Of a stretch of 64,000 bases of DNA, positions 3,001-61,992 are shown in pieces (the first letter of the stretch is position 1; each line of letters opens with the position of its first letter). The notes below the pieces were generated by a model, which was not told the origin of the DNA, made no database searches, and saw only the letters and a list, made by a program, of their open reading frames with translations. The stretch is from Sinohyriopsis cumingii (taxonomy: Eukaryota > Mollusca > Bivalvia > Unionida > Unionidae), in assembly GCA_028554795.2 (NCBI GenBank), contig CM068841.1, forward strand, positions 27,025,721 to 27,089,720, in the 5' to 3' direction. The position numbers and the translations under genes were made by a program.

Positions 3001-3260
3001 TATGAGGCAATTTCATGTAGGGAAAAAGGCCCACAGACCGCCTGTACAAACAAAAGACATTGGAATAGAAACTCCTGAATATGTACCCATTCATAATGGA
3101 ATTACACATACATTAGGTGTTTTTATAAGCACTAGAGACTTGCACAAACAAAATATTATAGCCCAAACTTAGACTCCCCGTGCCAGTACCTAAACATGTG
3201 ACGAAGACAAAGTGTAAGCAAACTGTATAGGCAGAACTTTATCGGGATAGAAAGAGATCT
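1..3260 (-). mobile_element. DIRS-type retrotransposon relic, copy 1 (runs off window start)
   Basis: About 1-1740 and 2990-3260 align on the same strand with 54720-57010 of the complete DIRS-like element. They share the RNase H-like and RT blocks and the 5' region (for example CAGTACCTAAACATGTG against CAAGTACCTAAATGTG). Minus-strand reading at 464-646 gives an RT fragment with SALNQFIHAPWFSM and GDFAISVELNSAYLH. Relative to copy 2 it lacks about 330 bp of the RNase H region and part of the RT, and it carries about 1.3 kb (1740-2990) that copy 2 lacks. That extra part could be an upstream gag-like region or an unrelated insertion. No terminal repeat was seen near 3260. Multiple stops and frame changes show it is dead. 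Confidence 0.75.
464..646 (-). pseudogene. DIRS reverse transcriptase fragment (copy 1)
   Basis: A 60-codon open stretch containing LSALNQFIHAPWFSMEKSQ and FAISVELNSAYLH. The paralogue at 55628-55876 reads VGLDGAYLHFPI at the same place, the RT motif A area (usually xDLKDAYLHIPI in DIRS). Here the aspartate is replaced by asparagine and the frame stops soon after. Confidence 0.7.
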
Positions 3261-42500: not shown

Positions 42501-45500
42501 TACTTAACTGATACAGTAATTTAAGTAATCCAATTATCTTTATTGATGTCCATTATCCAAAGTCAGGTTTTCGTTACTGAAAGAAGTGCTGGTTAAAGGA
42601 TACATGTATCATTCAGGTTAATATCATATCATTAACAATGACGTTTACAGGAAATGGGGTCAACAACGTTAGAATAGAATTTGGGGCTTCACACAGCAGA
42701 TTTTGTCTTTGATGATTACCACCAGACATAACTGTCAAGATAATAACATGGTCAGCATAGGTAAAATATAGTTTTTGTAGATTAACACACAGTGAGAAAT
42801 TAACCTTGAACAAAACAGGATACCAGACAAAAACCAAAAAAATCATGTGACAGTACAGCTGTCATTTCCATTATAGACCAAGCATTTCATCTACTCTACA
42901 AATGTTTCATCCACATAATTAAATTACAGTACAATTAGCAACATAGGCAAAAATCATTACAAAACTTTAACATATAATCAAAGTAAAAGTTATTCAACTT
43001 GACAACAATGGGGAGAGCTCAAGTACTCTTGGGAAGACTCAAATAAACAAGATTGTAACAGATAAGGAGACTATTCTTCAGCAGTAGGAAAATGGAGCAA
43101 AATGAAAGAGAATTATTTTAAATGCTAAGCAATGTATGTACTAAGGTTAAGATTGACATTTTTTAATGGTTTTTTAATTTGCATGCCAACACTACCCCAC
43201 TAACATCTCATGCTTATGAATAAGAACTATTAAATAAGTCTGTTGTAATGACAAGAAGAACCTTTTAATAATTAATGCTAATTTTAAATGGAGATTGTTG
43301 TTGTTGTTGTTGTTGTTGTAGGGTTTAACGCCATTTTTCAGCACATGATAGGCTATTCATGGCAGCCAGTATTATTGGTGGAGGAAGAACCCGGGAAAAC
43401 CCCAGAAAGAACCACCGACCCACAAGAAGCTACTGGCAAGCTTACTCAGATACCCACATTGGCCGAATCGGAGACTCGAACCCATGCAGACAGAGGTGAG
43501 ATGGCAATGATCCGTAATGGAAAGCGCTTTAGACCACTCGGCCACTCGGGGCCCCTTAAAGAGATAAATGCTTTGAAGTTATATGTAGCTTCTTACTACA
43601 TACACATAATTCTCACAAATATTATCCCCCTCTGGAAAGGCCACCCATCTTATTATATAGTCACTTTCCAGTGCTGAAGGAGTGCCGTATAACACCCATC
43701 TTATAGTCACTTTCCAGTGCTGAAGGAGTGCCGTATAACACCCATCTTATAGTCACTTTCCAGTGCTGAAGGAATGCTGTATAACACCCATCTTATAGTC
43801 ACTTTCCAGTGCTGAAGGAGTGCCGTATAACACCCATCTTATAGTCACTTTCCAGTGCTGAAGGAGTGCCATATAACACCCATCTTATAGTCACTTTCCA
43901 GTGCTGAAGGAATGCCGTATAACACCCATCTTATTATATAGTCACTTTCCACTGCTGAAGGAATGCTGTATAACACCCATCTTATAGTCACTTTCCAGTG
44001 CTGAAGGAGTGCCGTATAACACCCATCTTATTATATAGTCACTTTCCAGTGCTGAAGGAATGCCGTATAACACCCATCTTATAGTCACTTTCCAGTACTG
44101 AAGGAGTGCTGTATAACACCCATCTTATAGTCACTTTCCAGTGCTGAAGGAATGCTGTATAACACCCATCTTATTATATAGTCACTTTCCAGTACTGAAG
44201 GAGTGCTGTATAACACCCATCTTATAGTCACTTTCCAGTGCTGAAGGAATGCCGTATAACACCCATCTTATTATATAGTCACTTTCCAGTACTGAAGGAG
44301 TGCCGTATAACACCCATCTTATAGTCACTTTCCAGTGCTGAAGGAATGCCGTTTAACACCCATCTTATTATATAGTCACTTTCCAGTGCTGAAGGAGTGC
44401 CGTATAACACCCATCTTATAGTCACTTTCCAGTGCTGAATGAGTGCCGTATAACACCCATCTTATAGTCACTTTCCAGTGATGAAAGAGTGCCATATAAC
44501 ACCCATCTTATAGTCACTTTCCAGTGCTGAACGAGTGCCGTATAAGAGGGGGACCACAGTAGTAGCAAAACGATTTTCCAAATGGCTGCCATGGAAGTCA
44601 TACTCTATGTACAGAGCACCATTTTTATTTAAGACCAACCAGACCTTGGGAAGAATGTACCTGTAAAGTTTGATGGCAATCTTCCCACTAGTTTAGAAGA
44701 CTAGATATAAGAAACTTCTGCTAACAGATGCTGATTGTCATACTAAGATGCCAATGCATACGTTTTTCTGGTATACAACCAGTGGCTCTATAAAAAGGAA
44801 AAATGATACATGCTCATTCAACAAATCTTTAAAATTAAAAACAAGAGTCCCTTGAAGGGACTGACACTCCACTAGGCAAAAAGAATTTCCAGGAATTTAA
44901 AAAAGACCATTTCTTCCTTTTAGCTGTAAAGTCTTTAAACCATCTCTGATATTGTTCAGCAGCAACAAGCTTTTGGTCTGATACACATAACAGATATCAG
45001 CTTGAGATTTAGGACAAAGAGGACATCATTAGAAGTCTTTTGGTAAAGTCCCGATCATCCATTCTGGGAAAGTAGCGACAACAAGACTTTTTAGACAGAT
45101 GTCATGGCAGCCATACTGGATGTATGACTGACACCATTTTCGTTCTGAACCAACTAGGCCTTGTAAGAAGTCTGCTGATGAGGGCCAGTTGACATAGACA
45201 TCCATTTGGAGAGGAGTAGAGATAATAATATTTTCAAAATATGACTTTCCATTTTAGAATGGCAATAACAAGATTTTAAAAATGCCAGCTGTGATGGACA
45301 TACTGGAAATCACATAAGCACAATTTTATTTAAGACCATCTGGACATGATAATTAACATTTTGGTGTAAACCCTACATCAATATGACTTTCTGTTCAAGT
45401 AGAGTTATGATAACAAGATGTTTAAAATGGCTGCCATGGGGGCCATATTAATGTGAAAGCTTTCTTTAGTACCACCTAAATATCATAACAAGTCTTTTAA

Positions 45501-46571
45501 TATGACCATCTATTCTGAAGGAGTAGCAATAACAAGAGTTTCAAAATGGATGCCATGGGGGCCATATGAGACATCAGATCAGCACTATTTGTATTCAGCA
45601 CCAATTAGAAATCATAATGAATCGTTCAGTGAAAACCCCATGCTTATATGACCATCTATTCATGAGAAGTAGTGATAACAAATATTTTCAAGATGGCTGC
45701 CATGGTGGCCATATTAGATGTCTGAACAAAACCATTTTCATTTAGGACCATCTAAACCACACGATGAATGCATGTGTAAAGTTTACAGGCAATCATCCAG
45801 CAGTTTAACAGGAGTATTGATAACAAACTTGTGCAAATGGACAGATAGATGACAGTCGACAGATGATGGACAACGGACATCAGATCATCCAATAAGCTCT
45901 TCTGGTCTTTGCACATTATAGTGGCCATATCAAAAAGACAAAGGGATGAATCTCATGGCAAGTGGCACAAAGGGTTTTAAATTATTTTAGTTATTGGCTC
46001 ATAGTCACCTTAAATATTTCTTGCTATGTAAGTGCAAGTATTTTATGAGGTAATTAGGTCCTATTCATGTCAGATTGAAGCAAATTACATTTGTTTAGTT
46101 ACCAGCAAGCACACTGAGATTATAGTTGAAAATGAGACACTAGGTCACCTCAGATTGTGTCCAAAACAAGAAGTTCAGGAAAAAATGAAACTGTAAAAAA
46201 ACGTCTGAAACGCTTCGGGCTCGACTAATGTGGGTATGTGAGAAAGCTTGCCGGTAGCTTCTCATGGGTTGGTGGTTCTTTCCAGGGTTTTCCCACGTTC
46301 TTCCTCCACCATTAATACGGGCCGCCATGTATAGCCTATCTTATGCTGAAAAATGGCATTAAACCCCATTACAACAACAACAACTGTCTGAAACAGAGCA
46401 AAGCATTAAAAAATTATTTTGGCAAACAAATACAAACACTAAACCACTTTTAAACAAAAAGGAAGGGGATGCTTAGTGTTATTTTGATATTTATATTTCA
46501 ATACTTACTTGTGAAGCTCTGCCTCTTGTTCCATAATTGTACCAACAGCTTTCCACCCAGCTATCATTGTC
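6954..46571 (-). CDS. NOSTRIN: Nostrin-like F-BAR/HR1 protein gene, partial, eight exons
   Basis: Eight minus-strand segments with AG/GT borders splice into one open frame of about 252 residues. The order is that of nostrin: F-BAR coiled coil (WKAVGTIMEQEAELHK, then YEDISKPMKQLVEAQHK), a lysine-rich linker helix, the late F-BAR helix with NQYNSHISVLG, and an HR1-like helix (KSTLQQYLLHLRQSIEREK). In vertebrates nostrin is a membrane-binding F-BAR/SH3 adaptor that recruits dynamin and N-WASP in endocytosis and binds endothelial NO synthase; whether the NO synthase link holds here is unknown. Introns after the first two exons are nearly all phase 0. The N-terminal F-BAR start and the SH3 domain are missing; they may lie outside the window or in short exons I did not recognise. 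Another F-BAR family is possible, but the NQYNSHI stretch and the HR1 exon favour nostrin. Confidence 0.8.
7070..7260. repeat. Degenerate short tandem repeat upstream of the HR1 exon
   Basis: Imperfect recurrences of GGCATTGTA-TGAAG/AAA followed by AAACTA(A/G)ATTA, roughly every 50-60 bp, starting immediately upstream of the splice acceptor at 7063. Weakly conserved. Confidence 0.4.
7500..8000 (+). repeat. Dispersed repeat E, copy 1
   Basis: Shares GACCCAGATCTGCCA(G/T)TGCAT, CAACAGTAGATC and ACTTG(A/T)-GTAAGCAAATATAT with 59830-59990 in the same orientation. Past 7720 it holds GGCATTAACAGCTGTCAAATT and mirrored 'gcaagtgaa/cttgccag' pieces. Family unknown; no coding content. Confidence 0.5.
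8863..8982 (-). CDS. NOSTRIN: Nostrin-like exon g (linker after F-BAR)
   Basis: 120 nt, 40 codons, phase 0/0, with a TTTCAG acceptor and a GTGAGT donor. It encodes SCDKLHEAILSVDMNGDIKT, then VAQQRGTSSNVLEQFLIDCY. The pattern C-x-(Q/K)-x-H-x-AI-x(3)-D-x(3)-DI-x-(A/T)-V and the final LxDxY match the segment after the F-BAR domain of vertebrate nostrin. Confidence 0.85.
9000..11190. other. Intron sequence, mostly unique AT-rich
   Basis: Apart from the TA run, no repeat unit, exon-like frame or mobile-element end was recognised. Confidence 0.4.
9572..9621. repeat. (TA)n dinucleotide run, about 25 units
   Basis: Uninterrupted TA repeat in the intron between exons f and g. Confidence 0.97.
11195..11320. 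mobile_element. 126-bp fold-back (hairpin) element
   Basis: The left arm starts AGGTTACTGCATTTGTATGG and the right arm ends with its reverse complement. Pairing continues inward through AAAATATGA and GATGGA-TACTGCA to a centre near 11258. The arms are about 60 bp with a few mismatches and small bulges. The form is that of a short MITE-like fold-back element with no coding capacity. Confidence 0.8.
11523..11640 (+). mobile_element. tRNA-derived SINE head (family D)
   Basis: GCAGTGGCTCAGTGGTTAAG resembles a pol III A box, with a further AGGTAGTGGGTTTCATTC about 30 bp on that resembles a degraded B box. The cloverleaf is not intact and sequence continues directly into the 135-bp degenerate array, so this is a SINE relic and not a tRNA gene. 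Confidence 0.55.
11640..13440. repeat. Degenerate ~135-bp tandem array, about 13 units
   Basis: Recurring blocks in fixed order: ATATGGCCTCTAG-GTGTTCACA, then CAATCAGATGCAAGATCA, then TTATTAATATGCATGGATGT, then CTCATAATCAAACTCA, then GAGATCTTGATGA, AAGCTTACATACCAAATCTG. The cycle repeats roughly every 130-140 bp with heavy divergence. It is an old satellite-like array. Similar phrasing recurs at 28800-29050 and 30900-31560, suggesting the same dispersed family. Confidence 0.75.
13441..14190. other. Unique intron sequence
   Basis: No motif-bearing frame, tandem unit or element end was recognised. A small GATGATGAAAATG-rich patch lies near 13740-13800. Confidence 0.35.
14190..14780 (+). mobile_element. 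Possible solo LTR or promoter-bearing repeat
   Basis: GTGTATATAAAGGGAGAACT at about 14410 is a good TATA box and is followed about 25 bp downstream by an initiator-like TCAGTTTCATTC. Upstream sequence is moderately GC-rich compared with its surroundings, with ATTGGTTGGGCTAGGTCAC. This layout suits an LTR promoter. No second copy, no clear TG…CA ends and no target duplication could be confirmed. Confidence 0.3.
15002..15231. repeat. 57-bp tandem repeat, four copies
   Basis: Units beginning GCCCCCATGGGTAAATCA at 15002, 15059, 15116 and 15173, each ending GCGGACATCCACTGCATC. Identity is high, so the expansion is young. Confidence 0.95.
15232..16129. other. Unique intron sequence
   Basis: The 94-codon minus-strand frame at 15489-15773 has no recognisable domain and no splice-consistent partner. 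Nothing else supported. Confidence 0.35.
16130..16770. repeat. Dispersed repeat F, copy related to 29639-30245
   Basis: Shares with 29639-30245, in the same orientation, the blocks ATGATATCAAATAAT, GATCTAA-ATTAGACCGGTCTAAACTGC (against ATCTAAGGTAGACTGGTATGAACTGC), ATCTTTGCAAA, AAAATGGG and a late TTCAG-T-ATAA-CAA with CCAGGG. It is diverged and its ends are unclear. Confidence 0.5.
16771..17970. other. Unique intron sequence
   Basis: No repeat or exon recognised up to the donor of exon f. Confidence 0.35.
17979..18086 (-). CDS. NOSTRIN: Nostrin-like exon f (end of F-BAR)
   Basis: 108 nt, 36 codons, phase 0/0, with a TTTTAG acceptor and a GTAAAG donor. It encodes ACAQFQALEEERIAKMSDYL and then NQYNSHISVLGPRLTQ. 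The EEER-I and NQY-x-SHIS-x-G motifs correspond closely to EKERIQ and NQYSQHISLFG of nostrin and are the strongest single argument for that assignment. The preceding intron (about 8.8 kb) contains the 7-kb inverted-repeat element. Confidence 0.88.
18720..18846. repeat. 34-bp minisatellite, left part, split by insertion
   Basis: Units TTAACCATAATGCTTAAGCA… start at 18720, 18754, 18788 and 18822; the last is cut at TAA (18844-18846) by the inverted-repeat element. The array resumes at 25842 in register. Confidence 0.95.
18847..18875 (+). repeat. Left 29-bp terminal inverted repeat
   Basis: Begins GGGCTGTTCCATTAAAAC and ends ATGGGAC. It matches 25813-25841 on the other strand without mismatch; similarity stops inward of base 29. 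Confidence 0.9.
18880..21260. other. Interior of 7-kb element, left part, no gene recognised
   Basis: Contains a G8 run near 18989 followed by TATATATAAATATATATA, a CT/TA microsatellite at 19266-19290 and otherwise AT-rich sequence. Open frames (for example 19331-19618 minus, 95 codons) carry no motif. Confidence 0.4.
21262..21321. mobile_element. 60-bp perfect-stem hairpin
   Basis: TAGTGTATAAGGGCTG at the left end is repeated inverted as CAGCCCTTATACACTA at the right, with a centre GGGCCCATTGCCAGCCT. It could be a tiny MITE or an RNA hairpin. No second copy was found in the window. Confidence 0.7.
22155..23155. repeat. 60-bp minisatellite, main part, about 12 copies, split by a SINE
   Basis: The unit contains GTGTCACATGAGATACTTCA, TACACACATACAATTG and TAATGCCAATGTTATTATGT. 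The array is interrupted at 22449-22703 by a SINE and cut at 23154 by a TA-flanked transposon. The remainder is at 24727-24790. The 60-bp period leaves plus-strand frames open (for example 22777-23169); these are not genes. Confidence 0.95.
22449..22703 (-). mobile_element. tRNA-derived SINE (family S), full length, with 11-bp target duplication
   Basis: On the minus strand the head GGGGCCCCGAGTGGCCGAGT carries a pol III A box (TGGCCGAGTGGT) and GGTTCGAGTCT as B box, as in Ser/Leu-type tRNA. It is followed by a body with GTTCTTCCTCC and CTATCGTGTGCTGGAAAATG and an (AAC)n tail. The 11-bp duplication ACATGCAATTG occurs at 22438-22448 and 22704-22714. The body resembles the V-SINE-like mollusc families (RUDI-type) in style; exact family not verified. 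Confidence 0.92.
23156..24726. mobile_element. 1571-bp TA-flanked DNA transposon, non-autonomous (Tc1/mariner/pogo type)
   Basis: The left end CACCTCTCCCTTGATAACTT and the right end, reversed, CACCACTCCCTTGATAACTC are inverted repeats with few mismatches. TA flanks at 23154-23155 and 24727-24728. Removing it restores the 60-bp minisatellite unit (ATGCCAATGTTAC|TA|TGTGAAAG). Each end also has a second, subterminal copy of the motif (CAAGTTACCAAGGG at 23221; CAAGTTATCAGGGC at 24691). No transposase frame is recognisable. Confidence 0.85.
24727..24790. repeat. 60-bp minisatellite, right remnant after transposon
   Basis: TTTCACATATGATACTTCAT and CAATTTTAATGCCAATATTA are the diverged last unit of the array left of the transposon. 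Confidence 0.85.
24791..25812. other. Interior of 7-kb element, right part
   Basis: No gene recognised. The minus-strand frame at 25247-25474 (75 codons, with LGWHHSDPIQCTLRKELNV) has coding-like composition but no family match I can name. It may be a transposon-protein relic. Confidence 0.35.
25813..25841 (-). repeat. Right 29-bp terminal inverted repeat
   Basis: Reverse complement of 18847-18875, followed by the TAA duplicate and the resumed minisatellite. Confidence 0.9.
25842..25985. repeat. 34-bp minisatellite, right part after insertion
   Basis: Begins TAAGACACATTGTTAACCAT in register with the array at 18720-18846. It then degrades into a shorter ~21-bp motif TTACACTATTAATGATAATG repeated three times, and ends with one more full-type unit. 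Confidence 0.9.
25986..26851. other. Intron sequence next to exon e
   Basis: No repeat or further exon recognised. Confidence 0.35.
26852..26968 (-). CDS. NOSTRIN: Nostrin-like exon e (F-BAR helix)
   Basis: 117 nt, 39 codons, phase 0/0, with a TTACAG acceptor and an AAG|GTAGTA donor. It encodes LEGKVKKLSECLRKADQEYC, then DLSEKAEVARQEWDFSISK. The KL-x(6)-ADQEYCDL pattern and the later R-x-EWD match the third F-BAR helix (K-x(2)-KEDENYYQ…RLKWE in nostrin). The intron before it is only about 0.9 kb. Confidence 0.88.
27309..27500 (+). mobile_element. tRNA-derived SINE (family C) with AT-rich tail
   Basis: GGTAGCTTAGCTGGCAGAGC is an A-box-bearing tRNA-like head; CATGGGTTTAATACCTG sits where the B box would be. 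The body CCTAGGCAAGTGTGGATTGG follows, ending in ACCAATAAAACCAACC and a long (AT)n at 27508-27555. The 61568-61697 segment has the same organisation. Confidence 0.7.
27508..27555. repeat. (AT)n microsatellite at SINE tail
   Basis: About 24 uninterrupted AT units directly after the family C SINE. Confidence 0.95.
27857..27952 (-). CDS. NOSTRIN: Nostrin-like exon d (F-BAR linker region)
   Basis: 96 nt, 32 codons, phase 0/0, with a TTTTTCAG acceptor and a GTAAGC donor. The product begins AKKNCYSTAKDYEKTEETLS and continues with a G/K/D-rich stretch (SGGKGKDKDLSK). It matches the KAKKK-x(4)-TKK-x-E region of nostrin F-BAR. The intron before it is about 9.2 kb and holds the 33-bp array. Confidence 0.85.
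28000..28680. other. Intron, unique
   Basis: GCTACCAGATTC…GGGCTACCA recurs loosely at 28250-28350. Nothing else identified. Confidence 0.3.
28800..29050 (+). repeat. Degenerate repeat related to the 11640-13440 family
   Basis: Two loose units of AAATCT-CTCAT-ATCAACCTCATC…GATTTTGTTCAG-TGAAGCT…CACAGCCAATTCAG, similar in phrasing to 30900-31560. Confidence 0.45.
29060..29270 (+). mobile_element. tRNA-derived SINE (family B), copy 1
   Basis: The head TTGGTGGCCTAGTGGTTAAA holds an A box and GGCAAGTTCAAACG a decayed B box. The body CATACCAAAGACTTATAAAA and CAGGATAATATGATTGGATG with GGGACATCATGCTA is shared in opposite orientation with 47690-47889. Confidence 0.8.
29340..30900 (+). repeat. Dispersed repeat G, copy 1, with a nested MITE
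   Basis: Aligns in the same orientation with 39060-39960. Shared blocks: GAATCCAAAGTTG-CTTC, CTTGCTTTG-AATAAAATAA, TCCTG(T/C)CAGTAAGTTCAAA, TCCAGTTTTCAGTC, TTTGAG-ACAACCAAACA, GGAGTTTGTGGATATATT, GTTCTGGGACAGGAA. The far end CAATATATACGGTAAATATG looks like a DNA-transposon tip. Copy 1 is split by the 29639-30245 MITE. A pogo-type fragment lies next to copy 2, so repeat G may be the non-coding remainder of that element. Confidence 0.65.
29639..30245. mobile_element. 607-bp MITE with TTAA flanks (piggyBac-like)
   Basis: The left end CACATTAACCCCTGG and the reversed right end CACATTAATCCCTGG are 15-bp inverted repeats with one mismatch. TTAA lies on both sides (29635-29638 and 30246-30249). Copy 2 of repeat G is uninterrupted at this place, giving an empty-site comparison. 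No coding capacity; the TTAA duplication suggests piggyBac mobilisation. Confidence 0.65.
30900..31560 (+). repeat. Degenerate repeats, same style as 28800-29050
   Basis: Recurring AGGGCCATAAC-ATGT, CATCAAACTCA-AGGTCTTGTAGAGATGAA and CAATAAATCTTGAGTTTCGAG-ATTCACAAG modules, strongly diverged. Confidence 0.45.
31561..32260. other. Intron sequence, unique
   Basis: The plus-strand frame at 31401-31787 (128 codons) crosses the repeat and carries no motif. It is read as chance. Confidence 0.35.
32261..32507 (-). mobile_element. SINE family S, at the edge of the 33-bp array
   Basis: Minus-strand head GGGGGCCCTGAGTGGCTGAG, same body as 22449-22703 and tail (AAC)n at 32261-32272. Its 5' end abuts the first unit of the 33-bp minisatellite at 32508. 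No exact target duplication was seen. Confidence 0.9.
32508..36366. repeat. 33-bp minisatellite, about 117 units, 3.86 kb
   Basis: The unit is ACTGCATCTATGATGAGTAG plus GGAATCCAAATAA, in three main junction versions (GAATCC, GAATCA, GAATAATA) and with GATGAG/GACGAG/GACAAG/GATAAG variation. The last units (36165-36366) are diverged (ATAATAAAATACATC). As 33 is a multiple of 3, a minus-strand frame stays open for 1135 codons (32428-35835) and breaks at 35832 by a 2-bp length change. It lies on the sense strand of a nostrin intron and is not considered a gene. Confidence 0.97.
36367..37124. other. Intron between 33-bp array and exon c
   Basis: Unique sequence; nothing recognised. Confidence 0.35.
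37125..37187 (-). CDS. NOSTRIN: Nostrin-like exon c (F-BAR helix)
   Basis: 63 nt, 21 codons, phase 0 on both sides. It encodes IEATVDKAYKAVADKRADEY and a final lysine. The acceptor is AAAACAG and the donor is GTAATG. The first 18 exon bases and the acceptor are copied three more times upstream in the transcript (37235-37429), so this exon has three decoy acceptors (see findings). Only the copy at 37187 leads into an open frame. Confidence 0.85.
37170..37429. repeat. 65-bp tandem duplication containing the exon c splice acceptor, four copies
   Basis: Copies start GTCAACTGTTGCTTCAATCT at 37170, 37235, 37300 and 37365. Each contains, on the minus strand, the acceptor AAAACAG and the first 18 bases of exon c. 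The last copy is the most diverged (TAAATAGGAGGAAATT). Confidence 0.95.
38183..38455. repeat. 43-bp minisatellite next to exon b donor, six copies
   Basis: The unit is TTTAAGCTGATTAGTTTAGT plus GTCATCACAGAGACAACACAA, mostly 43 bp. AAGCTGATT occurs at 38212, 38253, 38296, 38339, 38382 and 38425. It stops about 5-8 bp before the GTTAGT donor of exon b. Confidence 0.93.
38462..38543 (-). CDS. NOSTRIN: Nostrin-like exon b (F-BAR helix)
   Basis: 82 nt: one base completing the split lysine codon, then 27 codons that include NFAAALYEDISKPMKQLVEA. The acceptor is TTTGCAG and the donor is GTTAGT. It ends in phase 0 with KARKP. In nostrin the equivalent segment is the I-x-KP-x(6)-Q-x(2)-KRK stretch of the F-BAR domain. 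A 43-bp minisatellite begins only about 10 bp inside the intron, next to the donor. Confidence 0.85.
38627..38656. repeat. (CT)n microsatellite
   Basis: CTCTCTCTCTCTCTCTTT run. Confidence 0.9.
38706..38987 (-). pseudogene. Pogo/Tigger-type transposase fragment
   Basis: Minus-strand open stretch with NNMDETPVYFGLIPGQT and NRVKSVRI. It matches the first catalytic aspartate motif of pogo-superfamily DDE transposases (xNMDETPxYF…GxKTVR, known of the family). The second and third catalytic motifs are missing and the frame stops soon after, so this is a remnant. It adjoins repeat G copy 2. Confidence 0.7.
39060..39960 (+). repeat. Dispersed repeat G, copy 2
   Basis: See 29340-30900 for shared blocks; this copy lacks the nested MITE. 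A short piece of the family (TTTGATACAAACAGGCATTG and TGTAACCCATA) recurs at 41578-41655. Confidence 0.65.
39985..41570 (+). repeat. Dispersed repeat A, copy 2 (inverted relative to 3650-5390)
   Basis: Starts near GTCACTTAACAATTCACTAC and ends near ACACCACAATCGTGTTATAT. The plus-strand coding-like block at 40773-40994 carries YRKYECSEVFNSM and TEVSQNK, as in copy 1. Another block encodes FLIVAASSNN. Both are too short and broken to be functional. Confidence 0.6.
41655..42210 (+). repeat. Degenerate ~73-bp tandem repeat
   Basis: About six loose units of ATCTT(G/T)ATGCTGATGTCAC, TTGTATGTGACTTACACAAA and CCTTAATACAATAACTTA. Another unit lies at 38695-38765. Interrupted at 42044-42156 by a small inverted-repeat element. 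Confidence 0.7.
42044..42156. mobile_element. ~110-bp inverted-repeat insertion (MITE-like)
   Basis: The left end AGGTATGTGCAACCT and the reversed right end AGGCATGTGCAACTTCC form imperfect inverted repeats. It splits a unit of the 73-bp array. The target duplication is not clear. Confidence 0.5.
42211..43290. other. Intron, unique
   Basis: No feature recognised. The 77-codon minus frame at 42613-42846 has no motif. Confidence 0.3.
43295..43555 (-). mobile_element. SINE family S, full length
   Basis: Minus-strand head GGGGCCCCGAGTGGCCGAGT with A and B boxes, the shared body and an (AAC)n tail of about nine units. It lies about 85 bp from the start of the 46-bp array. The plus frame 43288-43677 is a shadow of this SINE. 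Confidence 0.92.
43640..44545. repeat. 46/51-bp minisatellite, about 19 copies
   Basis: The unit is CTTATAGTCACTTTCCAGTG plus CTGAAGGAGTGCCGTATAAC and ACCCAT, 46 bp. A second version has CTTATTATATAGTC and is 51 bp (positions 43981→44027 = 46, 44027→44078 = 51). The long form is scattered irregularly among short ones. Confidence 0.95.
44550..45960 (+). repeat. Degenerate dispersed repeat with 'aaaatggctgccatgg' modules
   Basis: Recurring modules: ATGGCTGCCATGG-GGCCATATT, then ATTTAGGACCATCTAAAC, then CCATCTATTC-GAAGTAG-GATAACAA. They recur about every 150-200 bp. Near its end there is a low-complexity ACAGATAGATGACAGTCGAC tract. It looks like an old multi-copy element; family not recognised. 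Confidence 0.55.
46212..46385 (+). mobile_element. SINE family S, 5'-truncated, with 9-bp target duplication
   Basis: The body and (CAA)n tail are as in the other copies, but the tRNA-like head is missing; it starts at GCTTCGGGCTCGACTAATG. The duplication GTCTGAAAC is at 46203-46211 and 46386-46394. It lies on the plus strand, antisense to nostrin, about 115 bp from exon a. Confidence 0.9.
46509..46571 (-). CDS. NOSTRIN: Nostrin-like exon a (F-BAR helix, most upstream exon seen)
   Basis: 63 nt between a CCAG acceptor and a GTAAGT donor. It starts with one base completing a codon and then encodes TMIAGWKAVGTIMEQEAELH plus two bases of a lysine codon. The W-x(3)-G-x(2)-M-x(3)-AELH spacing is typical of the first long F-BAR helix, where vertebrate nostrin has W-x(3)-G-x(2)-x-ADLH. 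The split AA|G codon is completed by the first base of the next exon, which supports the join. A preceding exon is required by the phase but was not identified between 46572 and 64000. Confidence 0.85.
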
Positions 46572-48408: not shown

Positions 48409-50597
48409 CAGTTGACTCCACTTAACTGCACATCGGTTAACTGCACACTCCGAATAACTGCACATAGTCACGCCGGTCCCGTTTTTTCCAATGCTTTTCA
48501 ATGGGAACAAACTTCGGATAACTGTACTTCGCTTAAATGCACACTCCAGATAATAGCATGATAAATTTTCTGCCTATGGCACATTATTCAAAACAATTTT
48601 ACTCCAGTTAACTGCACAATGTATATTCAGGATCAGTTGTTGCCAGTCCACTGCTGTAGTGCTTCAAATAAGCCAAAAATTAAGCCAGTAAATGCGACTT
48701 TGTAAATGACTGTCATGTAAAGTACGCCATAGGTTGTAGATATGGTAGATACATGTATGTCTCTGCCCACCAGGGAGCAATAGTGTGGGAACAATCACAG
48801 TACAGCATGGGAAACATTGCTCTAAACCGTGATTTGAACTAGGGGGTAATCATTGGAAGTTCAACCTTGAATTTATGAGCATTTATTTTAGAGTCTAAAA
48901 AGACTAGTCGCAAGTGTAAATCCCTGACGTCAGCTCAAAGGTTTGAAGTCATAAAATGCGTTGAGAACAACAGAAGTCAGGTCTCTGTTGCACTTGAGTC
49001 ACAGTGTGATTTCGTGAATCCTCAAGAACAAGAAGATTATTGAAGACTGGCAAAATAACAGCAATCCTTCTCAGAAGCGCAAATGGGGTGGCAAGTCCGT
49101 AGATGTTGAAGAAGCGCTGTTACAATGGTTCAATCAAGCTCGCAGTCGACAGATTCCGATAAGTGGGCCACTGTTGTTTGAAAAAGCTAATCATTTGGCA
49201 AATGGTTCGGGTTTGCATAATTTCAATTTAAACGACAACATGGCAAAAAACAGGATGCAGACGACTTTGGAGCTGAATGATGGGTAACTGATGTTCTACC
49301 CAAAATCCTTAAAGACTACCAACCAAAAGACATCTTCAATGCCGATGAAACTGGGTTGTACTGGCGGGCATTACCTGATGGGGCTTTGTCTTTCAAAGGA
49401 GCAGAAGCACAGGGATGTAAGATTGCCAAAGATCGTTTGACCATTTTGTTAGCATGCAGTATGGATGGTAGCGAAAAATTGGATGCCTTGGTGATTGGTA
49501 AAAGCACATTCCCTTGAATGTTTTAAGAATTTGAAAAAGCTGCCAGTACAGTATGAGGCAAACAAAAATGCCTGGATGACGACAGAAATTTGAAGAGATG
49601 GTTGAAGCGCGTTGACAATCAAATGTGTTTGCAAAGAGAGGCATCATTATGCTGTGCAACAATTGTGCAGCTCATGGCGATGGCATCAAACTGTCAAATG
49701 TTAAGATTGTTTTCCTTCCTCCGAACACAACTTCACTGATTCAACCAATGGATGAAGGAATTATAGCGAATTTCAAGAAGTTCTATAGATCACTTGTTAT
49801 TCAAAAACTGCTGTCAGACATTGATGGATCATCTCCCAAAGAAAAAGCATCCAACCAGACAAGGAAGCTGACAGCTTTAGATGCACTTCATATGATTAGA
49901 AATGCCTGGAGCAATGTAACACAGTCAACCGTAGCAAACTGCTATAGGCGGCCCAGTTTTTCAGTGCCTTCTGATGACGAGTCACTTGATGACCCCACCT
50001 ATATCGGCGAAACCCCATTCAAAATGCCACATGGCATGAATGTAGAAGAATTCGAACAATATGTTGCAATAGATGACAGTCTTCAGACGGAAGGTGAAAT
50101 CGATGACTCAACCATCGTTACAGCTCTTACAGAGACAAAACAAGAAGAAAATGACAAAAGAAGTGATGATGATGATGCAGTAAATGACCAGGTTTCATTT
50201 AAAGTCGCTATACAGTCACTCCAGAATTTATGCAGATTCATGGAACAGAGACAATGTGAGCTGTTTGAACCGTTTTACATAATGGAGTCAGCGATTCACC
50301 AACTTATTAGTAAAACATGTGTGCAGATATCAATTGCCGATTTCTTTCGGAAATCAGAAATTTCGTTGTGTTTGATTCAACAATATGATGTTAGTGCTGT
50401 TCATTGTAGACTCTTGTTTCATTTAAGTAAACGTTGAAAGACTGGATTCTAATCATCTTTTTACGCTATTCTTCACCTATATTCGTGCCGTGCTGATTTA
50501 AAGCTGTACTGTACCGTACTTCAGTTAACTGCACACTCCAGTTAACTGCACAGTCTCGTGACAGGCCCAAGGCTGTGCAGTTAACTGGAGTCGACTG
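48409..50597 (+). mobile_element. Tigger/pogo-type DNA transposon, 2189 bp
   Basis: The inverted ends CAGTTGACTCCACTTAACTG (left) and CAGTCGACTCCAGTTAACTG (right, reversed) continue into subterminal 'taactgcac' repeats. TA flanks at 48407-48408 and 50598-50599. A TA duplication plus a CENP-B-type transposase defines the pogo/Tigger group (known of the family). The internal gene is decayed. It lies upstream of the nostrin exons seen. Confidence 0.93.
48900..50437 (+). pseudogene. Tigger-type transposase, frameshifted and catalytically altered
   Basis: In order: a psq-like N-terminal helix-turn-helix with SAQRFEVIKCVENNRSQVSV (48930-49010); after a frame change, a CENP-B type DNA-binding domain with LLQWFNQARSRQIPISGPLL (about 49110-49180); after another stop, DDE motif 1 DIFNADETGLYWRALPDGAL (49328-49390); then the C-terminal frame 49625-50437 (270 codons) with IIMLCNNCAAH, VFLPPNTTSLIQPMDEGII and FKKFYR. 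The usual second catalytic motif is DNCxAH; here it is NNCAAH, so an Asp is replaced by Asn. At least three frame breaks (near 49035, 49290 and 49517) plus this change show it cannot act. Confidence 0.92.
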
Positions 50598-51244: not shown

Positions 51245-52090
51245 ATGCCAATGTCACAAAATTCCATTTTCACAGCCATTGATTTGTGTATACCAATGTT
51301 AAATTTAACTTTGTGTATGCCAATGTCACAAAATCACATTTTCACAGCCATTGATTTGTGTATATAAATGCTAAATTTAACTTTGTGTATGCCAATGTCA
51401 CAAAATCACATTTTCACAGCCACTGATTTGTGTATACCAGTGTTACAAAATCCCATTTTCACAGCCATTGATTTGTGTATACCAATGTTAAAAAATCCCA
51501 TTTTCACAGCCACTAATTTGCGTATACCAATGTTACAAAATCCCATTTTCATAGCCATTGATTTGTGTATACCAATGTTACAAAATCCCATTTTCACAGC
51601 TACTGATTTGTATATACCAATGTTACAAAATCCCATTTTCACAGCCATTGATTTGTGTATACCAATGTTAAAAAATCCCATTTTCACAGCCACTGATTTG
51701 TGTATACCAATGTTACAAAATCCCATTTTCACAGCCACTGATTTGTGTATACCAATGTTAAAAAATCCCATTTTCACAGCCATTGATTTGTGTATACCGA
51801 TGTTACAAAATCCCATTTTCACAGCCACTGATTTGTGTATACCAATGTTACAAAATCCCATTTTTACAGCCACTGATTTGTGTATACCAATGTTAAAAAA
51901 TCCCATTTTCACAGCCACTAATTTACGTATACCAATGTTACAAAATCCCTTTTTCACAGCCATTGATTTGTGTATACCAATGTTACAAAATCCCATTTTT
52001 ACACCATTAATTTAATTTGTAATTGCCAATGACACAAAATCTCATTTTCACAGCCAGTGATTTAACTTTGTGTATGCCAAAATCCTATTT
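51245..52090. repeat. 45-bp minisatellite, about 16 copies
   Basis: Unit CCAATGTTACAAAATCCCAT, TTTCACAGCCA(T/C)TGATTTG and TGTATA. The first units (51245-51410) are longer, with an extra AAATTTAACTTTG piece, and the end (52010-52090) is diverged. The period of 45 keeps both strands open (51368-52015 plus, 51406-51996 minus); both frames are read as by-products. Confidence 0.95.
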
Positions 52091-52445
52091 TCACCATGTC
52101 TGAATGCATATGCTTGTTTATTTCCAGTAGTTACAATTGCAGGAGCAACATGTCTTATTGCTAAGATATAATGCTGGTGAAACACAAATCCAATACAAGT
52201 TCTTTATATAACCATAGTTACTTGACTACACCGCCTTGGAAATTGAGTAGTTACATAATATGAAATGCATAGGAAGTATTCATCAGAGATGACTTTCTCC
52301 CTGAAAATATATTAAGTTAGCATAAGAATTTGTAATTTTCTTCCCAATAACATCATCTCTGGTGAGGTTTGAGCCACACTGTAGTTACATATTAGAAATG
52401 CAGTAAAACATCTCAGTACATATGTGCTTTTCTTGCTAAATGTTG

Positions 52446-52781
52446 TCGCTAATATGCCAAGTAAATAGCTTACCTCCTTGGTAGATATTACCTGTAATAT
52501 GCCAAGTAAATAGCTTACCTCCTTGGTAGATATCGCCTCTAATATGCCAAGTAAATAGCTTACCTCCTTGGTAGATATCGCCTCTAATATGCCAAGTAAA
52601 TAGCTTACCACCTTGGTAGATATTGCCTCTAATATCTACAAGTAAATAGCTTACCTCCTTGGTAGATATTACCTGTAATATGTCAAGTAAATAGCTTACT
52701 TCCTTGGTAGATATTACCTGTAATATACCAAGTAAATAGCTTACCTCATTGGTAGATTTTGCCTCTAATATGCCAACTAAA
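52446..52781. repeat. Second 45-bp minisatellite, left part, split by DIRS-like element
   Basis: Unit GCCAAGTAAATAGCTTACCT, CCTTGGTAGATATTACCTGT, AATAT; about seven and a half copies. The last unit is cut after ATGCCAACTAAA at 52781 and resumes at 57357 with TAGCTTACCTCC. Confidence 0.95.
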
Positions 52782-53065
52782 CCAATATTTCCAAGTATAA
52801 TATGTTTCTTTGAAAATACTGAGTCAATCTTAATACCTTCAGACAACTATCACTACCTCGCAAATCCAATCCTCCCAGATACTACTTTTAGCTAAAGGGA
52901 GCTAAAAGTTGTCTGCTGACCTATTTGTCAGTTGGGCAAAGTGATCTCCCCATGCATATAAGACTCGGTATCACAGTGTAAGAATATCCCAGTTATTACT
53001 GGAGCAGAGGGCAGGCTCCCTATGGATGTAACTGTGGGAAGGCTTGGAGGGTGTATGTGTATGAT

Positions 53066-53140
53066 GATTGGGTAAGTATTTTGTCAGAAATATATTTTAC
53101 TAGGGAAAATTGGTTTCTTCTTTGAATACATTACCCAATC
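53066..53140. repeat. DIRS internal complementary region (tip-to-tip junction)
   Basis: The minus-strand reading GATTGGGTAATGTATTCAAA then GAAGAAA equals the right tip ending at 57356. It is followed at once (53113/53114) by CCAATTTTCCCTAGTA, equal to the left tip starting at 52782 (CCAATATTTCCAAGTA). This is the circle-junction template expected for DIRS replication. Confidence 0.85.
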
Positions 53141-54100
53141 ATAATACCTCAGGAGAATAGGTAAGACACAGAGGGAGGTACATTCCCTTACCCCAGAGAT
53201 AACAACTCTGGTCCTGTAAGGTATTAGCTTCTAGGTAACCCAACTGAAGGAGACTCCATCTGTTAGGGCACGGCTTCATAAGGGCAAGAAAAAACAATTT
53301 CATGAAAATCCAGCGGAAGTCATGAAGCCACATCTTAGGAAGCTGTTGATTGATCTGGAAGGAAGACATGTTGAGCTGCAGATATAGGTCCTACTAGATT
53401 TAATTGGCCTCTCTGGGAGGACAGATCTTAGAGCTAGAGAATGTGGACTCCAATATCCATCCTACTGCTTGAACCTCTTCAGCTGAAGTGAGTAAAAGTT
53501 CACTGAGCAGGGGTTATTTCCCTATATGCTGAGAAAATAACCCCCTTACTGCAGAATGTGATAATCTGTTCCAATCAATACTCCTGTCCTTTTATTGGAA
53601 GTAAAAAGAGACATGATCTCCTTTGAAGCAACAGCTCTGTTCATATTAATGAATCACCTGAAAACCTGGAAAGGGTCTTATAGGTGACTTTATTTGATGT
53701 ATGCAGATGAGTCAGGTTTTGTGAGAAAAGTTTAGCTACCCATGGAAGAGAGATGGTTCTTGGCAATGAAAGAAGACGTCATCATGAATAAGACTGACCT
53801 GTCTAGTCGGAACTTGCATGTAAATTGGGTCTGCTAGCTGATAGGGCATGAATTTCAAGAATTCTGCAAGCAGTTGCAAATAAACCAGGTCTTGTATGAA
53901 AAAGGGGTGCCAGAGACACCATTGAGAATGGTTCATAAAGTGTCTTATCCAGCCAGGTTAATAAACAATATAGGTTCTGCTTTGGGCCTAGGGTTAACAT
54001 TTCTAGCCATGTATACACAAAGTTAGTGAGAAGGTCAGACAAGTCCTGGGTTTGTCCAATATCCAATCTCTTATGATGATGAAAGATGTTGGCGATCATT
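53105..54100 (-). pseudogene. DIRS tyrosine recombinase remnant
   Basis: Minus-strand pieces include KRLDIGQTQDLSDLLTNFV, DKTLYEPFSMVSLAPLF, RILEIHALSASRP and QVSLIHDD (53736-54099). Further on, LHDFRWIFMKLFFLALM and LLQLGYLEANTLQDQS (53139-53369) fit the H-x-x-R and terminal region of DIRS recombinases. The frames do not connect. Confidence 0.8.
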
Positions 54101-54455
54101 GAGCGTTAACCTTGGACCATATTTGGTGTTATCTTGCTCTTTTCGAAGAGCCAGAGTAGGAAGTTAGCTATCTGTGGTATCAGTGCCTGGAGAGGTAAGA
54201 TATGTTCATTTGCACACCACTGGGTGAAACTGTGCAACTGACATCATATGCTTTTGGAGTGGAGGGCCATCATGACTGAGCAATTCTCTAATGACAGGTT
54301 GCAAAAATGTTTAATTCTGAGGGCCTGTTTGAGATGATCCAGACATGCATGTTCGGGTCTCCAGACAAGTATGAAACAACTGCCATTGTGGTTATATGAG
54401 TAGATGAAGAAAAACCCACATTCTGCGGGTTCCAATGCAAGATTGATGAGTTAGT

Positions 54456-55080
54456 TTATACACAACAGAGTGGTGCTATGAGGATAAGGCTACAGGTTGA
54501 TTCCTTTGCTTTCTGTATCACTTTGGAATCAGAGGTGTTGTGGGGTTGCTGTACGAGTTCAGGTTTATCCAATCCAACAGTAGGGCATCCATCACCATAG
54601 CTGTTGGGTCTGGGACAGGAGAGACAAAGGATGGGGTTTTGGCATTCCAAATTGTCACAAACAGGCCCACCAACAGTTGGTCCCATTGGATACAGATGTG
54701 ACTGAAAACTGAGGGATGGAGAGATGATTGCATCTTTACTAGTTGATTGTTCTGTGACAAAGGGTCGGTTAGTGCATTGAGGAGTTACAGGATATGGTGA
54801 ACCTGTATAGCTTGTTGATGATGACACCACTTCAAAAAGTCCCACACCATGACGCAAAGGTCTGGGGACTGGGGTCCTCATTGTTGCTGGAGATAAATCA
54901 CTATTGTAGGATTGAGATGATCCTTGTTGCTGAGAGAAGTCACTGCTGCGGAGTTGTCAGACAGAATGAAAACTCCTTTGCCATCTAAATATTCTTGCCC
55001 CCAATGAAAGGCGTTCACGATTTCCAGAATTATTGATATGAAAATGTCATTCCTAGGGAAAGCATGCACCGCTGGCATCC
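54456..55080 (-). pseudogene. DIRS RNase H and connector remnant
   Basis: Minus-strand 54878-55078 holds GVFILSDNSAAVTSLSNKD, the RNase H SDN motif. 54456-54881 holds PSLSFQSHLYPMGPTVGGPV and PILCLSCPRPNSYGDG in alternating frames. These correspond to the segment between RNase H and recombinase in DIRS elements. Confidence 0.78.
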
Positions 55081-55099
55081 CGAAATGATGTTAATGATG

Positions 55100-55900
55100 G
55101 CTCCCAAGCATTATGTACTTGCATCAGTACAGAATGTAATCTTAAGTGGGTGGATGCATATATTCATACCCACTGTGAGCCAAGTTAGGTTTTGCTCTGA
55201 ATTCCATCAATGGTGCCTCAATTAAGTGCCAATGTTGAGAGGATGGTTCATTGGGCAAACATGAGGACTCCATTCATGCAGAAAAAAAGTAGCAATGAGG
55301 AAGAAGGTGACCTGGGACTATGATGTCTGCTGCTGTGTGGAGGAGAGAATTCCTCAAAAGTAAGGTGCTACCATGGGTCGTTTCAATGTCTGATCCCAAG
55401 GGAGACAAAATATGGTGCCTGTGTATTGAAGTCCATATCTAGGTGAACAAATTGTTGAGATCGTACAAGGTCAGATTTTTTTCCTTGTTGATGAGAAGTT
55501 CAGATTGGTAACAAGGGCTATTATGACTGGTTAGAACTAACTCAATGATGTTGCTGCAGGATGTTGTCCAGATAACTTGATGTTGCCACCATAAAAATAG
55601 TCGGGACATGTGCTGTTACTCGATTTGTCAGACAAGGGGGCCTACGTTCAGCCTCAATTGGGATGCTCTGAATTGATAGACAATGTTGTAGGTGGATCGC
55701 AGGAACATCCTGGGAGCCTTATGAATAGGGAAATGAAGGTATGCACCATCTAAACCCACAGTGATGGCAAAGTCTGCCTCATGGATGGCATTCAAACTGC
55801 ACTGTGGTATTTCCAGTGGGAACCAAGGGGTGTGGATAAATGGATTGAGGGTGCTTAGACCAATGTAGAGAGTCATTTGCCATTGGGACCAAAGAAAGGG
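55100..55900 (-). pseudogene. DIRS reverse transcriptase remnant
   Basis: Minus-strand 55628-55876 has LSTLNPFIHTPWFPLEIPQ and VGLDGAYLHFPIHKAPRMFL (RT motif A region). 55370-55480 has FVHLDMDFNTQAPYF in another frame. The start of RNase H reads ITFCTDAST near 55120. Broken by stops. Confidence 0.78.
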
Positions 55901-57124
55901 TGTGGAACAAATGACAGAACCCTCCCAGGAACTAAATCCACATGGTATGAAATTGTTGGAGCTTCAATAGGACAGCTTTCCGAGGTTTGTGTCCTATAGG
56001 TGGTCCTTGGGTCCTTTTGTTGATTCCCCATACTATCCCTGTATCAATGCTGTGGCTGCAGAAGGAAGGGAAACATGTCTCCTTGATGGCTTGCTAGCAT
56101 ACTTCATCCATTGGGATGTTAAACAGAAGGTAGAGGATAGAGGCTGTGCTCTTAATTTGAGACTGACTCCCATACATGCCCTGAGGTATTCTGAGTGGGA
56201 GAAGATAAGCTATGTTTCATCGGTTGGAAGATAACCTGAGAGAACAGAAGTCCAACAACAAAGTCATGGTAACGATATCGCTCACTAACTGCACAGTGTC
56301 AATAAGGACCATCTGATCCATATGTATGGAGTGTGCCTATGTTATCCCCAATGCGGCGAGATCACTGTCAATGCTGGGTTTCCAAATGCAAACCTGGTGG
56401 GAGTGCAAAAGTTAGAACCAATGACAAACTGATGATGAAGGCAGGCCTGAAATGATGTAACTCTCCCAGACTATGAAAATAACTAAGTAAGATCAACAGA
56501 TGCTGGAGTACTGGTGCATGTTGTTGAAGGAGTTGGAGGAAGATGACAAAGCTCCAGGGGCAGTAAAACGTCCTCAATGGAGGTTCAGAAGGCAGAATCA
56601 TTCCGTACCCTTGTGTATGGTAGAGTAAACAATGGTATTGGTCGAACAAGCAACATCATCTTGATTGTCTGGAGTGAGGCTATGATCTCCTGTAATGCAC
56701 GACATTGACCTGATGAAAAGGGATGAGGTCTGTCACTCACTGAACTAAAAGAATGCTCTGAATTAGAAACTGACTTCAACATACTTTAAATTTGGCACCC
56801 AGATGCTACAAAAGATTTGGATAGGAACTCACCAGTATGTACCCATTTCTAAAGGAATTACACATATAGAGGAGTTATATGAGCACATGAGACTTGTACA
56901 TATAAATAAGTATAGCATGAACTGAGTGTCGCTTAGGCTCCACATGCAAGTACCTAAATGTGCGACTATGACAAAGTGTGGCAACATGTAAAGGCAGGAC
57001 TTTGTCATGATAGAAAGTGAGAAAAAGTTGGAAATATAGGTGGAGTATATTTTCCTTAGAAGTGAAAAACTCCTCCAACTTATAGTGGTATATCTTCCAC
57101 GTAGCTTCTGGCTTTTGCGAGGTG
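55900..57124 (-). mobile_element. DIRS 5' region
   Basis: Shares long blocks with copy 1 (for example GGTTTGTGTCCTATAGGTGG and CACATGCAAGTACCTAAA). No gag-like domain could be named. Copy 1 carries about 1.3 kb more within this stretch. Confidence 0.6.
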
Positions 57125-57356
57125 TCTCATGACAAGAGGGTGCTTCTTGGCACGAGCAGAAGTAATAACTGTGATACTCCTACATTGTGCCTTGAAGTCT
57201 TATATGTAAGGGGAGATCACTGTGCCTAACCGCCAATAGGTTGCAGACAAGGTTGAGCTCCCTTTAGCTAAAGTAGACTCTGGGAGGGCTGGATTTGTGA
57301 GGTAGTGGTAGTTCTCCAAAGGTTATTATGATTGGGTAAGGTATTCAAAGAAGAAA

Positions 57357-57463
57357 TAGCTTACCTCCTTGGTACATATTATCTGTAATATACCAAGTAA
57401 ATAGCTTACCTCCTTGGCAGATATTGCCTCTAATATTGCAAGTAAATAGCTTACCACCTTACT
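57357..57463. repeat. Second 45-bp minisatellite, right part
   Basis: Resumes TAGCTTACCTCCTTGGTACA in register with 52446-52781, runs about 2.4 units and ends at CTTACCACCTTA. Confidence 0.93.
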
Positions 57464-59750
57464 GGTCAATGGTGTAACTTGGAAATGTCTATACATTTCC
57501 AACATAACAGTAAGTTAAAAGAGAACAGTCTATGCCAAATACATGACTGAAAAATCACAACCTCTGGAAAACATATTTGTACCTACACCTTGATTTTAAA
57601 CATTAAGTGGCAATCCAATTTTAAATTAATAAACCTTGATTAACTCCTATAAAGCCCACACCAAAATAATGTGTGTTTGTGGTTAGCCAACTGTGAAGTG
57701 TCAAATTTTGAATTGCAGCAAACTTTAAAGTTGGATGCATTGAGCATTAAATTTTATCGCATTTTAGCCAGAAAAGTCTTCGTGAAGGGTCACTATCACG
57801 TTTCTTTGTTCACCTCCCCCATGTCAATGTAAACATCAAAGGGACAGCATTCCAACACGGTGAAATTGACCGGGGTATCTTAACAAGGTCCTTAGAAAGT
57901 AAATATTTGAGCTACCAATCCTAACCGCTTGGCAGAAACCTTATGTCCACTTATCAATTTTTCGAAGGGAAATTGTCACGCACTGTCGTTCACAGATTCT
58001 GAGTTGTCTTGACCTGATGAAAGGAATTATTTCTTTGGGAAAAATTACACACCACTCCCTATGATTTGGCAGAATAAATTAGGATGCAAACTTCAGAACA
58101 ATCAGACTTTAAAGCGATGACCTTAGCTGAAATTCTTTAGTCTGGAAATTTTCTAGAAGAGGAAACTTAATTCTCAACTCCGTGGAAAGCATAAAGAGAT
58201 TAGTGCCTTCCTCATGGAACAAGAAAGGGACTAGGTGGTCATCTTGTTAAAAGAAAGACATGTTTAGTGCTAGGATGCACAAGTTCTGAAAGAGATCAGC
58301 AAAAAGGTACTCAATTTTAGTTTCACATAATATTCTATTATTCAATTGTTTGTTAATGCAAATGTGTTTGCTATGACTAGGTTTCCATATTCTGTATCAT
58401 TTATTCAATTCATGGAAATGTGTTGATGCTAGAGTTATTAAGCAATTTATTTTATTCAATTTCATGGAAAGTGTTTTTGCTAGAATTGTTATGTAATTTA
58501 CCTTTATATTATACAGTTATTAGTTCATTGTTAGAACTGACTGCATGTGATCCAAATGTTCATATGTGTATGATTTCATAGGGTTACATGAAATAACTTC
58601 CTTTGTTTGTTAGGACGATACAGATGTCATTAGTTAATGATACATACCTAATTATATCTGATTTTGTAATGCTTGGATAATCTTGTAGGTTAAGGATTGT
58701 TGTGAGTTACATTTTGTGAATTTCATGCAATAGTAATCGAACATGTAGTAGCATATGTAAAATAATACGGTAATATTCGACAGACGTTCACATGGTAATT
58801 TAAGACTTGCCACTGGAAGCAAGGTCAATGGCCTACCGTACGAAGTCAGAATTTACGCAGTGTGTGGATAGCAACAAGCTCTCAGTAACTTAAGTGAATT
58901 GTATGTACCTCTAGAGAGCAGGGTATACAGAATTATGGGGTAATTTTGTCCTTTAAAGAACAGCTGAGAGAAAGATGAGACAGACTTAGGACAGAAATCT
59001 GGGGAAAAGAAAGAAGGACAAGGTCAGAATAAAAGGACCAGGAAGTCCATAGGGGGGCAAAGCACAGAGCTTAGGAAGGATGAACTTGGAGACATTGATA
59101 TACAGTCAAAGGGAAGAAAGGTGATGCAATCAATCATGGACATTGCACTCTTTTCACCTCTCATTATGATGATGAAATAAATCCACCTGTTACGTTCTAT
59201 TGATATAATCTAACTTGAATTGGAATTGCCGTTATTAATTTGTTCTAATTAAATTTGTTATTTTCTTGTCAAAGGGGGCTCATATTGCTTTATTACTCCC
59301 CAGTATTCTTGCTCAGTTCTCTGTTGAAATTCCATTCTTCTTTCACTCCCACCAGGCGATAATATCGAGGTCATCCTCTAGATAACGCCAGCCAAATCCA
59401 ATTAACCACCCTTCTTACTAAGAAGGCGACGTTACACCAACCATTCCTATTTTTCACTGCTGACTCAAGACCTCTGACCCCACCCCCTATAATTTTTAAA
59501 AAAAAAAAACAATTTTAAAATCGCTTTTTAACAATTTCCTGAAACTGATCTGTGGAGCCCAGTACCTGAAGTTCTTAGTAATTATATATATTAATCGTTA
59601 TAATATCCCTTTTTATATATAAAAAAAATCACTACTTACCCTAATTTTAAAACCAGTGCAATAGAAAATGCACATATTTGGGGGGAGGCTAAGTAATTAA
59701 AGATATAATCAACTAAGAAAAAAAAGACTTCACCTCAACTAAAATTACGA
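57464..59750. other. Unique sequence, no gene recognised
   Basis: Slightly richer in GC than the flanks between 57750 and 58100 and between 58780 and 59100. I looked for N-terminal nostrin exons on the minus strand and found none. AATAAA near 59176 might belong to an old LTR or other transcript, with no support. A poly-A/poly-T patch lies at 59490-59640. Confidence 0.35.
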
Positions 59751-61726: not shown

Positions 61727-61992
61727 TTCAATTGTTGTTGTTGCTGTTGTTGTTCTAGGGTTTAACGCCATTTTTCAGCACAAGATAGGCTATACATGGC
61801 GGCCAGTATAACTGGTGGAGGAAGAACCCTGGAAAACCCAGGGAAGAACCACCGACCCACGAAAAGCTACTGGCAGGCTTTCCCACGTACCCATGCTAGC
61901 CGAGCCTTGGACTCGAACCCACGAAGACAGAGGTGAGATGGCAGTGATCCGGAACAGTGAATGCTTTAGACCACTCGGCCACTCAGGGCCCC
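61727..61992 (-). mobile_element. SINE family S, full length
   Basis: Minus-strand head GGGGCCCTGAGTGGCCGAGT with A and B boxes, standard body and an expanded (AAC)n tail. GATATAT occurs at 61698-61704 and 61993-61999 as a likely 7-bp target duplication. Confidence 0.9.

Follow-up and report, generated by a model that had tools for sequence, protein, structure and literature searches.

How does a retrotransposon come to interrupt a tandem repeat without shifting its register, and what does the split repeat unit record about the event? The question is raised by a 64,000-nucleotide stretch of the genome of the bivalve Sinohyriopsis cumingii (GenBank assembly GCA_028554795.2, contig CM068841.1, positions 27,025,721 to 27,089,720; G000:C18:27025721-27089720), hereafter the window, in which a 45-bp minisatellite is broken by an insert of 4,575 bp. 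Sequence comparison supports a DIRS1-like retrotransposon as the insert, and we consider it very likely that it entered by recombination between a circular form of the element and a single repeat unit. We used the window itself and genome searches covering the 2.9-Gb assembly (1,138 contigs), in which only the best candidates were scored.

We looked first at the phase of the array on either side of the insert. Tandem Repeats Finder (TRF) placed the period-45 minisatellite at 52449-52781 and 57354-57460, and unit-by-unit matching set its left part at 52449-52781 (about 7.4 units, ending in ATGCCAACTAAA) and its right part at 57357-57463 (restarting in register with TAGCTTACC), with the 4,575 bp at 52782-57356 lying between them. 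When all 45 phases were tested, the left flank ended at phase 17 (83/90 matches, the next best phase giving 32) and the right flank restarted at the same phase (91/100 matches, next best 36), so that one unit is split 17|28. An earlier note on this DNA, drawn from the letters alone, had described a 4,575-bp element inserted in register and a normal unit upon rejoining of the halves; the first statement is exact at single-base level, and joining the two halves again gives a unit that agrees with the 45-bp unit at 41/45 positions. Minisatellites can turn over, and the unit consensus here matches at about 90%, so the array might have grown or been homogenized after the insertion, which would make the apparent register secondary. 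We regard this as extremely improbable, as the phase is the same to the base on both sides, the split unit is restored on rejoining, and a single split unit would not be recovered through unequal exchange over an insert of 4.6 kb.

We then examined the anatomy of the insert, which was delimited by BLAST, by comparison with family copies and by the match to the repeat unit, and whose coding strand is the minus strand. Two inverted terminal repeats were found by BLAST at 52806-53000 (plus strand) and 57161-57352 (minus strand), with 79.6% identity and 160/187 identical ungapped aligned columns. Outside the left repeat, at the coding 3' end, lies a 24-bp extension (52782-52805, minus strand) that is matched by an internal region of the element and is unmatched by the right end. 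This internal complementary region (53059-53157), likewise at the coding 3' end, carries the left tip and then the right tip in reverse complement, the two halves meeting at TTT (53114-53116), which reads AAA on the minus strand. BLAST gave 77.6% identity between 53059-53116 and the left tip and 91.1% between 53114-53157 and the right tip; agreement of the left half, with just 42/55 aligned bases, is clear but aged. The earlier note had placed the region at 53066-53140 and taken it to predict the same two tips as the array, which it does, although it is somewhat wider. On the coding strand, the element starts with TTT, ends with TTT and carries AAA at its junction, and the register and the split unit show no target-site duplication longer than the triplet held in common. 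Inverted terminal repeats, internal regions with a 3-bp junction, an extension, TTT termini of the NTT type and the lack of a longer duplication thus agree with the proposed DIRS-like identity and support a DIRS1-like retrotransposon.

The triplet AAA stands at both ends of the insertion. According to the unit-by-unit match, the left one (52779-52781) is the target triplet of the repeat unit, and according to the internal junction and the same match, the right one (57354-57356) is the last three bases of the element. It had been claimed that AAA is all that tip and target share and that no target duplication occurred. The absence of a longer duplication stands, but taken by itself the window site could equally be read as carrying a 3-bp target duplication; the circle reading is favored because the internal junction holds a single AAA and because of what is found in sister copies.

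Twenty long stretches with copies of the element were fetched, together with short stretches around tips from two further searches. Tips were located by similarity to the window copy or by typed tip strings, a procedure that may favor well-kept ends. Left ends were accepted when the tip CCAATTTTTC was matched at a minimum of 7/10 bases, which kept 46/50; L014, L074 and L081 fell below this limit, and L078 was dropped for sharing its flank with L054. The left ends of these last two (contigs C427 and C107, respectively) have 92% identical flanks over 77 bases and both read ATA, so they represent either a duplicated insertion or two haplotypes. Right tips were obtained from 9/20 long copies and from the window copy; L025, above the score threshold, was left out for an unreadable tip, the remaining long copies, including L019, were below the threshold, and the right boundary of L024 was shifted by 3 bases by hand. 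From the small loci, right ends that were left ends read backwards (L047, L057, L061, L064, L065 and L066), one within an internal region (L067) and one repeating L017 (L068) were excluded.

The kept copies do not end elsewhere: the 46/50 left ends and 36 right ends share the tips of the window copy, each right end closing with GAAG or a variant of it, followed by a triplet. By this comparison, the boundaries of the window element are those of the family. The earlier note had also held that intact DIRS boundaries are rarely available, which does not apply here, since the same tips can be read in dozens of copies. The triplet is AAA in 29/46 left ends and 30/36 right ends, and the internal junction, readable in 15/21 copies, is AAA in 12 of them and GAA in 3. 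Among the other left triplets are ATA, ACA, TCA, ATG and CCA (L013, L022, L050, L054, L051, L066, L089, L084, L015 and L052). Both ends were in hand for 13 copies, 7 of which have AAA on both sides. The register, the tips, the junction and AAA at both ends of the window copy, as well as the fact that sister copies show the same tips and junction again, are all direct observations.

Sister units of interrupted repeats were sought in all sequences fetched by then, and beyond the window, the joint was readable for only two further family insertions in tandem repeats, L013 and L079, so that their pre-insertion sites are legible from sister units. L079 lies in a third tandem array, with units reading TAG-AAA-AG at the joint, and is known from its left end alone. 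L013 (contig C10) interrupts a repeat whose units measure about 90 bp. It reads CATG-ATA-CCAAT at its left end, GGAG-AAA-CAG at its right end and AAA at its internal junction. CATG-ATA-CAT stands in three sister units, two of them to the left of the insertion and the third to its right. On the right, the flank continues the repeat in register as its next unit, with 87 bp to the next CATGATA versus 91 bp between the left units. In the simplest reading of these sequences, the target triplet would be ATA and the element triplet AAA, one of them kept at each end; since the ends differ in this way, the match between triplets need not be exact.

These copies bear on the alternative raised above, that a cut staggered by 3 bp doubled the AAA through ordinary target-site duplication, with no circle involved. 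AAA does flank the window copy on both sides, as it does in 7 of the 13 copies known at both ends. However, L013 has ATA on one side and AAA on the other although ATA stands in three of its sister units, the right triplet is almost constant and equal to the internal junction, and DIRS elements make no target duplication according to PMC3266345. We therefore consider a staggered cut very unlikely.

We propose that a DIRS1-like circle, its tips joined through one AAA (GAAG-AAA-CCAAT), would have been recombined by the tyrosine recombinase with the AAA inside one 45-bp unit. Exchange over the shared triplet would have left one AAA at each end and the unit split 17|28, with nothing else lost or duplicated, which would explain why the array stays in register. 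In its internal complementary region the element would hold its own record of the joined tips; the copy later decayed and lost about 1.4 kb. The circular intermediate, the strand exchange by the recombinase and the joining of the ends by the internal region are inferred from schemes in print. We hold this account with high confidence.

Several observations weigh against it. No circle was observed, and no recombinase domain exceeded the library cut-off in the pieces of the window copy or in the better-kept frame of a relative, L102. A second, empty allele was not found in the assembly, which was searched with one flank, the unique left one (52064-52448), present once. The window site has T before AAA, not the common G. 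Non-AAA triplets occur in 17/46 left and 6/36 right ends, and 3/15 internal junctions read GAA, so that exact identity of the triplets is not general. The reading of L013 given above also has evidence against it: ATA is missing at one boundary out of four, where GGAA takes the place of ATGATA ahead of the unit closest to the right flank, and this flank starts with CAG, whereas the sister units start with CAT.

We next asked whether the target extends beyond the triplet. Base counts were tested against flank composition at 44 positions. A was found at -2 in 31/46 left flanks (p = 9.5e-6), G at -1 in 23/46 (p = 2.9e-8; G or A in 38/46), and a pyrimidine at +1 in 33/36 right flanks (p = 8e-8). 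Among the outer positions, the strongest signal was A at -4 (27/46, p = 1e-3), the others giving p > 0.02. This target motif (A, G, AAA, pyrimidine) resembles the circle junction, AAG-AAA-CC, on both sides. The window site, which carries T at both -1 and +1, fits it only partially. No wider DIRS target motif was found in the literature searched, of which the coverage was partial, and hence we do not claim the motif as unreported.

The triplet also varies more on the left than on the right at positions 1 (p = 0.016) and 2 (p = 0.0098), not at position 3 (p = 0.74). One explanation is that all non-AAA left triplets are later mutations of AAA and that the wider motif reflects local base composition. 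The copies are indeed old, as about 9% of bases (9.4%, taken as the background) differ from the majority at neighboring left-tip positions; left positions 1 and 3 do not singly exceed this rate (p = 0.14 and 0.44), and pooled AAA counts differ between left and right only at p = 0.05. Against this explanation, left position 2 is above background (11/46, p = 0.003), as are positions 1 and 2 pooled (p = 0.002), the left exceeds the right at both of these positions, ATA recurs at four kept sites, three L013 sister units read ATA, and the wider motif had already been tested against flank composition. We view mutation and composition as a possible explanation of the whole pattern, short of a probable one, and later mutation may explain part of the left-triplet variation, L013 being the single direct case of a differing target. 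The other reading, to which we give about an even chance, is that the recombinase prefers a resemblance of about 6 bases to the junction and tolerates triplet mismatch, the left end keeping the bases of the target and the right end those of the element. The non-AAA left ends might also have come from a subfamily whose junction is ATA, a source that was rejected: four kept copies with such a left end were readable internally (L012, L013, L015 and L019; L022 was unreadable), and their internal junctions are all AAA.

An insertion in a tandem repeat records its own empty site, as sister units show the prior sequence. Where one genome holds numerous old DIRS copies along with numerous minisatellites, the 3-bp integration model becomes testable without a related genome. 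Our results confirm the geometry of the model and suggest that the target is read over about 6 bases with triplet mismatches allowed, which would bear on landing sites and on strand exchange by the recombinase.

The window copy is old, since other copies are 73 to 81% identical to it among the listed matches longer than 1 kb. It was compared across 56779-56781 with 15 sequences (14 fetched copies and a second copy in the window), all of which hold extra sequence at this point: 1.17 to 1.56 kb in 12 of them, 0.52 kb in L011, 1.80 kb in L009 and 1.95 kb in L010. Therefore, the window copy has undergone an internal deletion close to its coding 5' end, with the joint at 56779-56781. The second copy of the same family lies at 74-3257 in the same orientation, and pieces of it are 66 to 79% identical; a right terminal repeat was not matched in it. 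Neither the deletion nor this copy had been mentioned in the earlier note.

We then analyzed the coding remnants, all on the minus strand. Pfam searches of minus-strand pieces, 10 from the window copy and 6 from other copies, returned nothing relevant, and no methyltransferase was matched in the pieces scanned, their frames being broken. A profile of four reverse-transcriptase pieces matched no solved structure up to E = 1. Since these searches gave no relevant library or structure match, domain identity was taken from the better-kept relatives L100 and L102, through which the presence of reverse-transcriptase and RNase H remnants is supported. The reverse-transcriptase remnant (55628-55876) is identical at 41/77 positions to a 396-amino-acid frame of L100, which scores 29.1 bits for RVT_1 in Pfam, just under the cut-off of 29.6, and also matches a frame of L102 that scores 36.1 bits, above it. 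Against solved structures, the L100 frame retrieved one chain (E = 0.95). The RNase H remnant (54878-55078) matches L100 and L102 and has weaker support, with RT_RNaseH in the L100 frame at E = 0.0024, below the cut-off. A tyrosine-recombinase remnant is only probable at 53803-54099, which matches L102 by tblastn (E = 1.8e-19). For that L102 frame, the sole library hint, which stays below the cut-off, is to the tyrosine-recombinase family Flp_C (E = 0.082), and no solved structure was matched up to E = 5; the arginine box looks typical of DIRS recombinases. Within the RNase H region, a unit of about 101 bp (54837-54941), not a multiple of three in length, is single in the window copy and tandem in sister copies, with 1 to 9 units across 21 sequences (up to 9 in L013, 7 in L012 and 5 in L015).

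Other repeats were seen nearby. The window holds an open frame at 49616-50437 with a DDE_1 transposase match (E = 2.9e-19), which we take to be probably a pogo/Tigger-type transposon, and 117 copies of a 33-bp unit at 32508-36373, whose frame is open for 1,145 amino acids because 33 is a multiple of three. Related short dispersed repeats, presumably like short interspersed nuclear elements (SINEs), occur at 22446-22537, 32251-32344, 43300-43399, 46330-46384 and 61737-61836 and in many fetched loci. Elsewhere in the assembly (G000:C322, 657743-1217490), five reverse-transcriptase matches of equal score and query range are spaced by about 131 to 149 kb, suggesting a very large tandem duplication.

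Two other classes of elements were considered for the insert. A Crypton is contradicted by the inverted repeats; Cryptons are not known to have a reverse transcriptase. An Ngaro-like retrotransposon is contradicted by the presence of inverted repeats and the absence of split direct repeats, the minisatellite being the sole family of direct repeats of at least 18 bp found in 52000-58000. Split direct repeats define Ngaro-like retrotransposons in PMC9210276. Points of likeness to Cryptons are their tyrosine recombinase, of which the window element has a probable remnant, and their short direct repeats, regarded as what is recombined, but in PMC3212892 Cryptons are described without terminal inverted repeats.

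The closest likeness is to DIRS1-like elements. According to PMC3266345, the DIRS1 plan comprises inverted terminal repeats, a pair of internal complementary regions that overlap on a 3-bp circular junction, an extension on the right and termini that are mostly NTT, and integration pairs the junction triplet with an identical genomic triplet without target duplication. In the same source, AcDIRS2 of Anolis carolinensis, to which the window element is near in its termini, starts with TTT, ends with TGT, and has an AAA junction and an extension of 28 bp. The window element shares with it the inverted repeats, the internal regions on a 3-bp junction, the extension at the coding 3' end, the TTT start and the AAA junction, and differs in its extension (24 bp) and its TTT end. 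Xenopus DIRS-like families, set alongside by their termini alone, have TTT at both ends like the window element (PMC9210276). The DIRS1-like elements of Aplysia and Lottia follow the same structural plan, but their termini are ATT or AAT, their extensions measure 46 to 49 bp, and their conserved repeats are mostly 31 to 36 bp (141 in one) versus about 190 bp in the window element (PMC3266345). Compared with DIRS1-like elements in general, the window copy is internally deleted, its frames are broken and no methyltransferase domain is recognized in it. Structure, triplet and mode of insertion are already published in PMC3266345, and by its sequence the window element adds one more DIRS1-like case.

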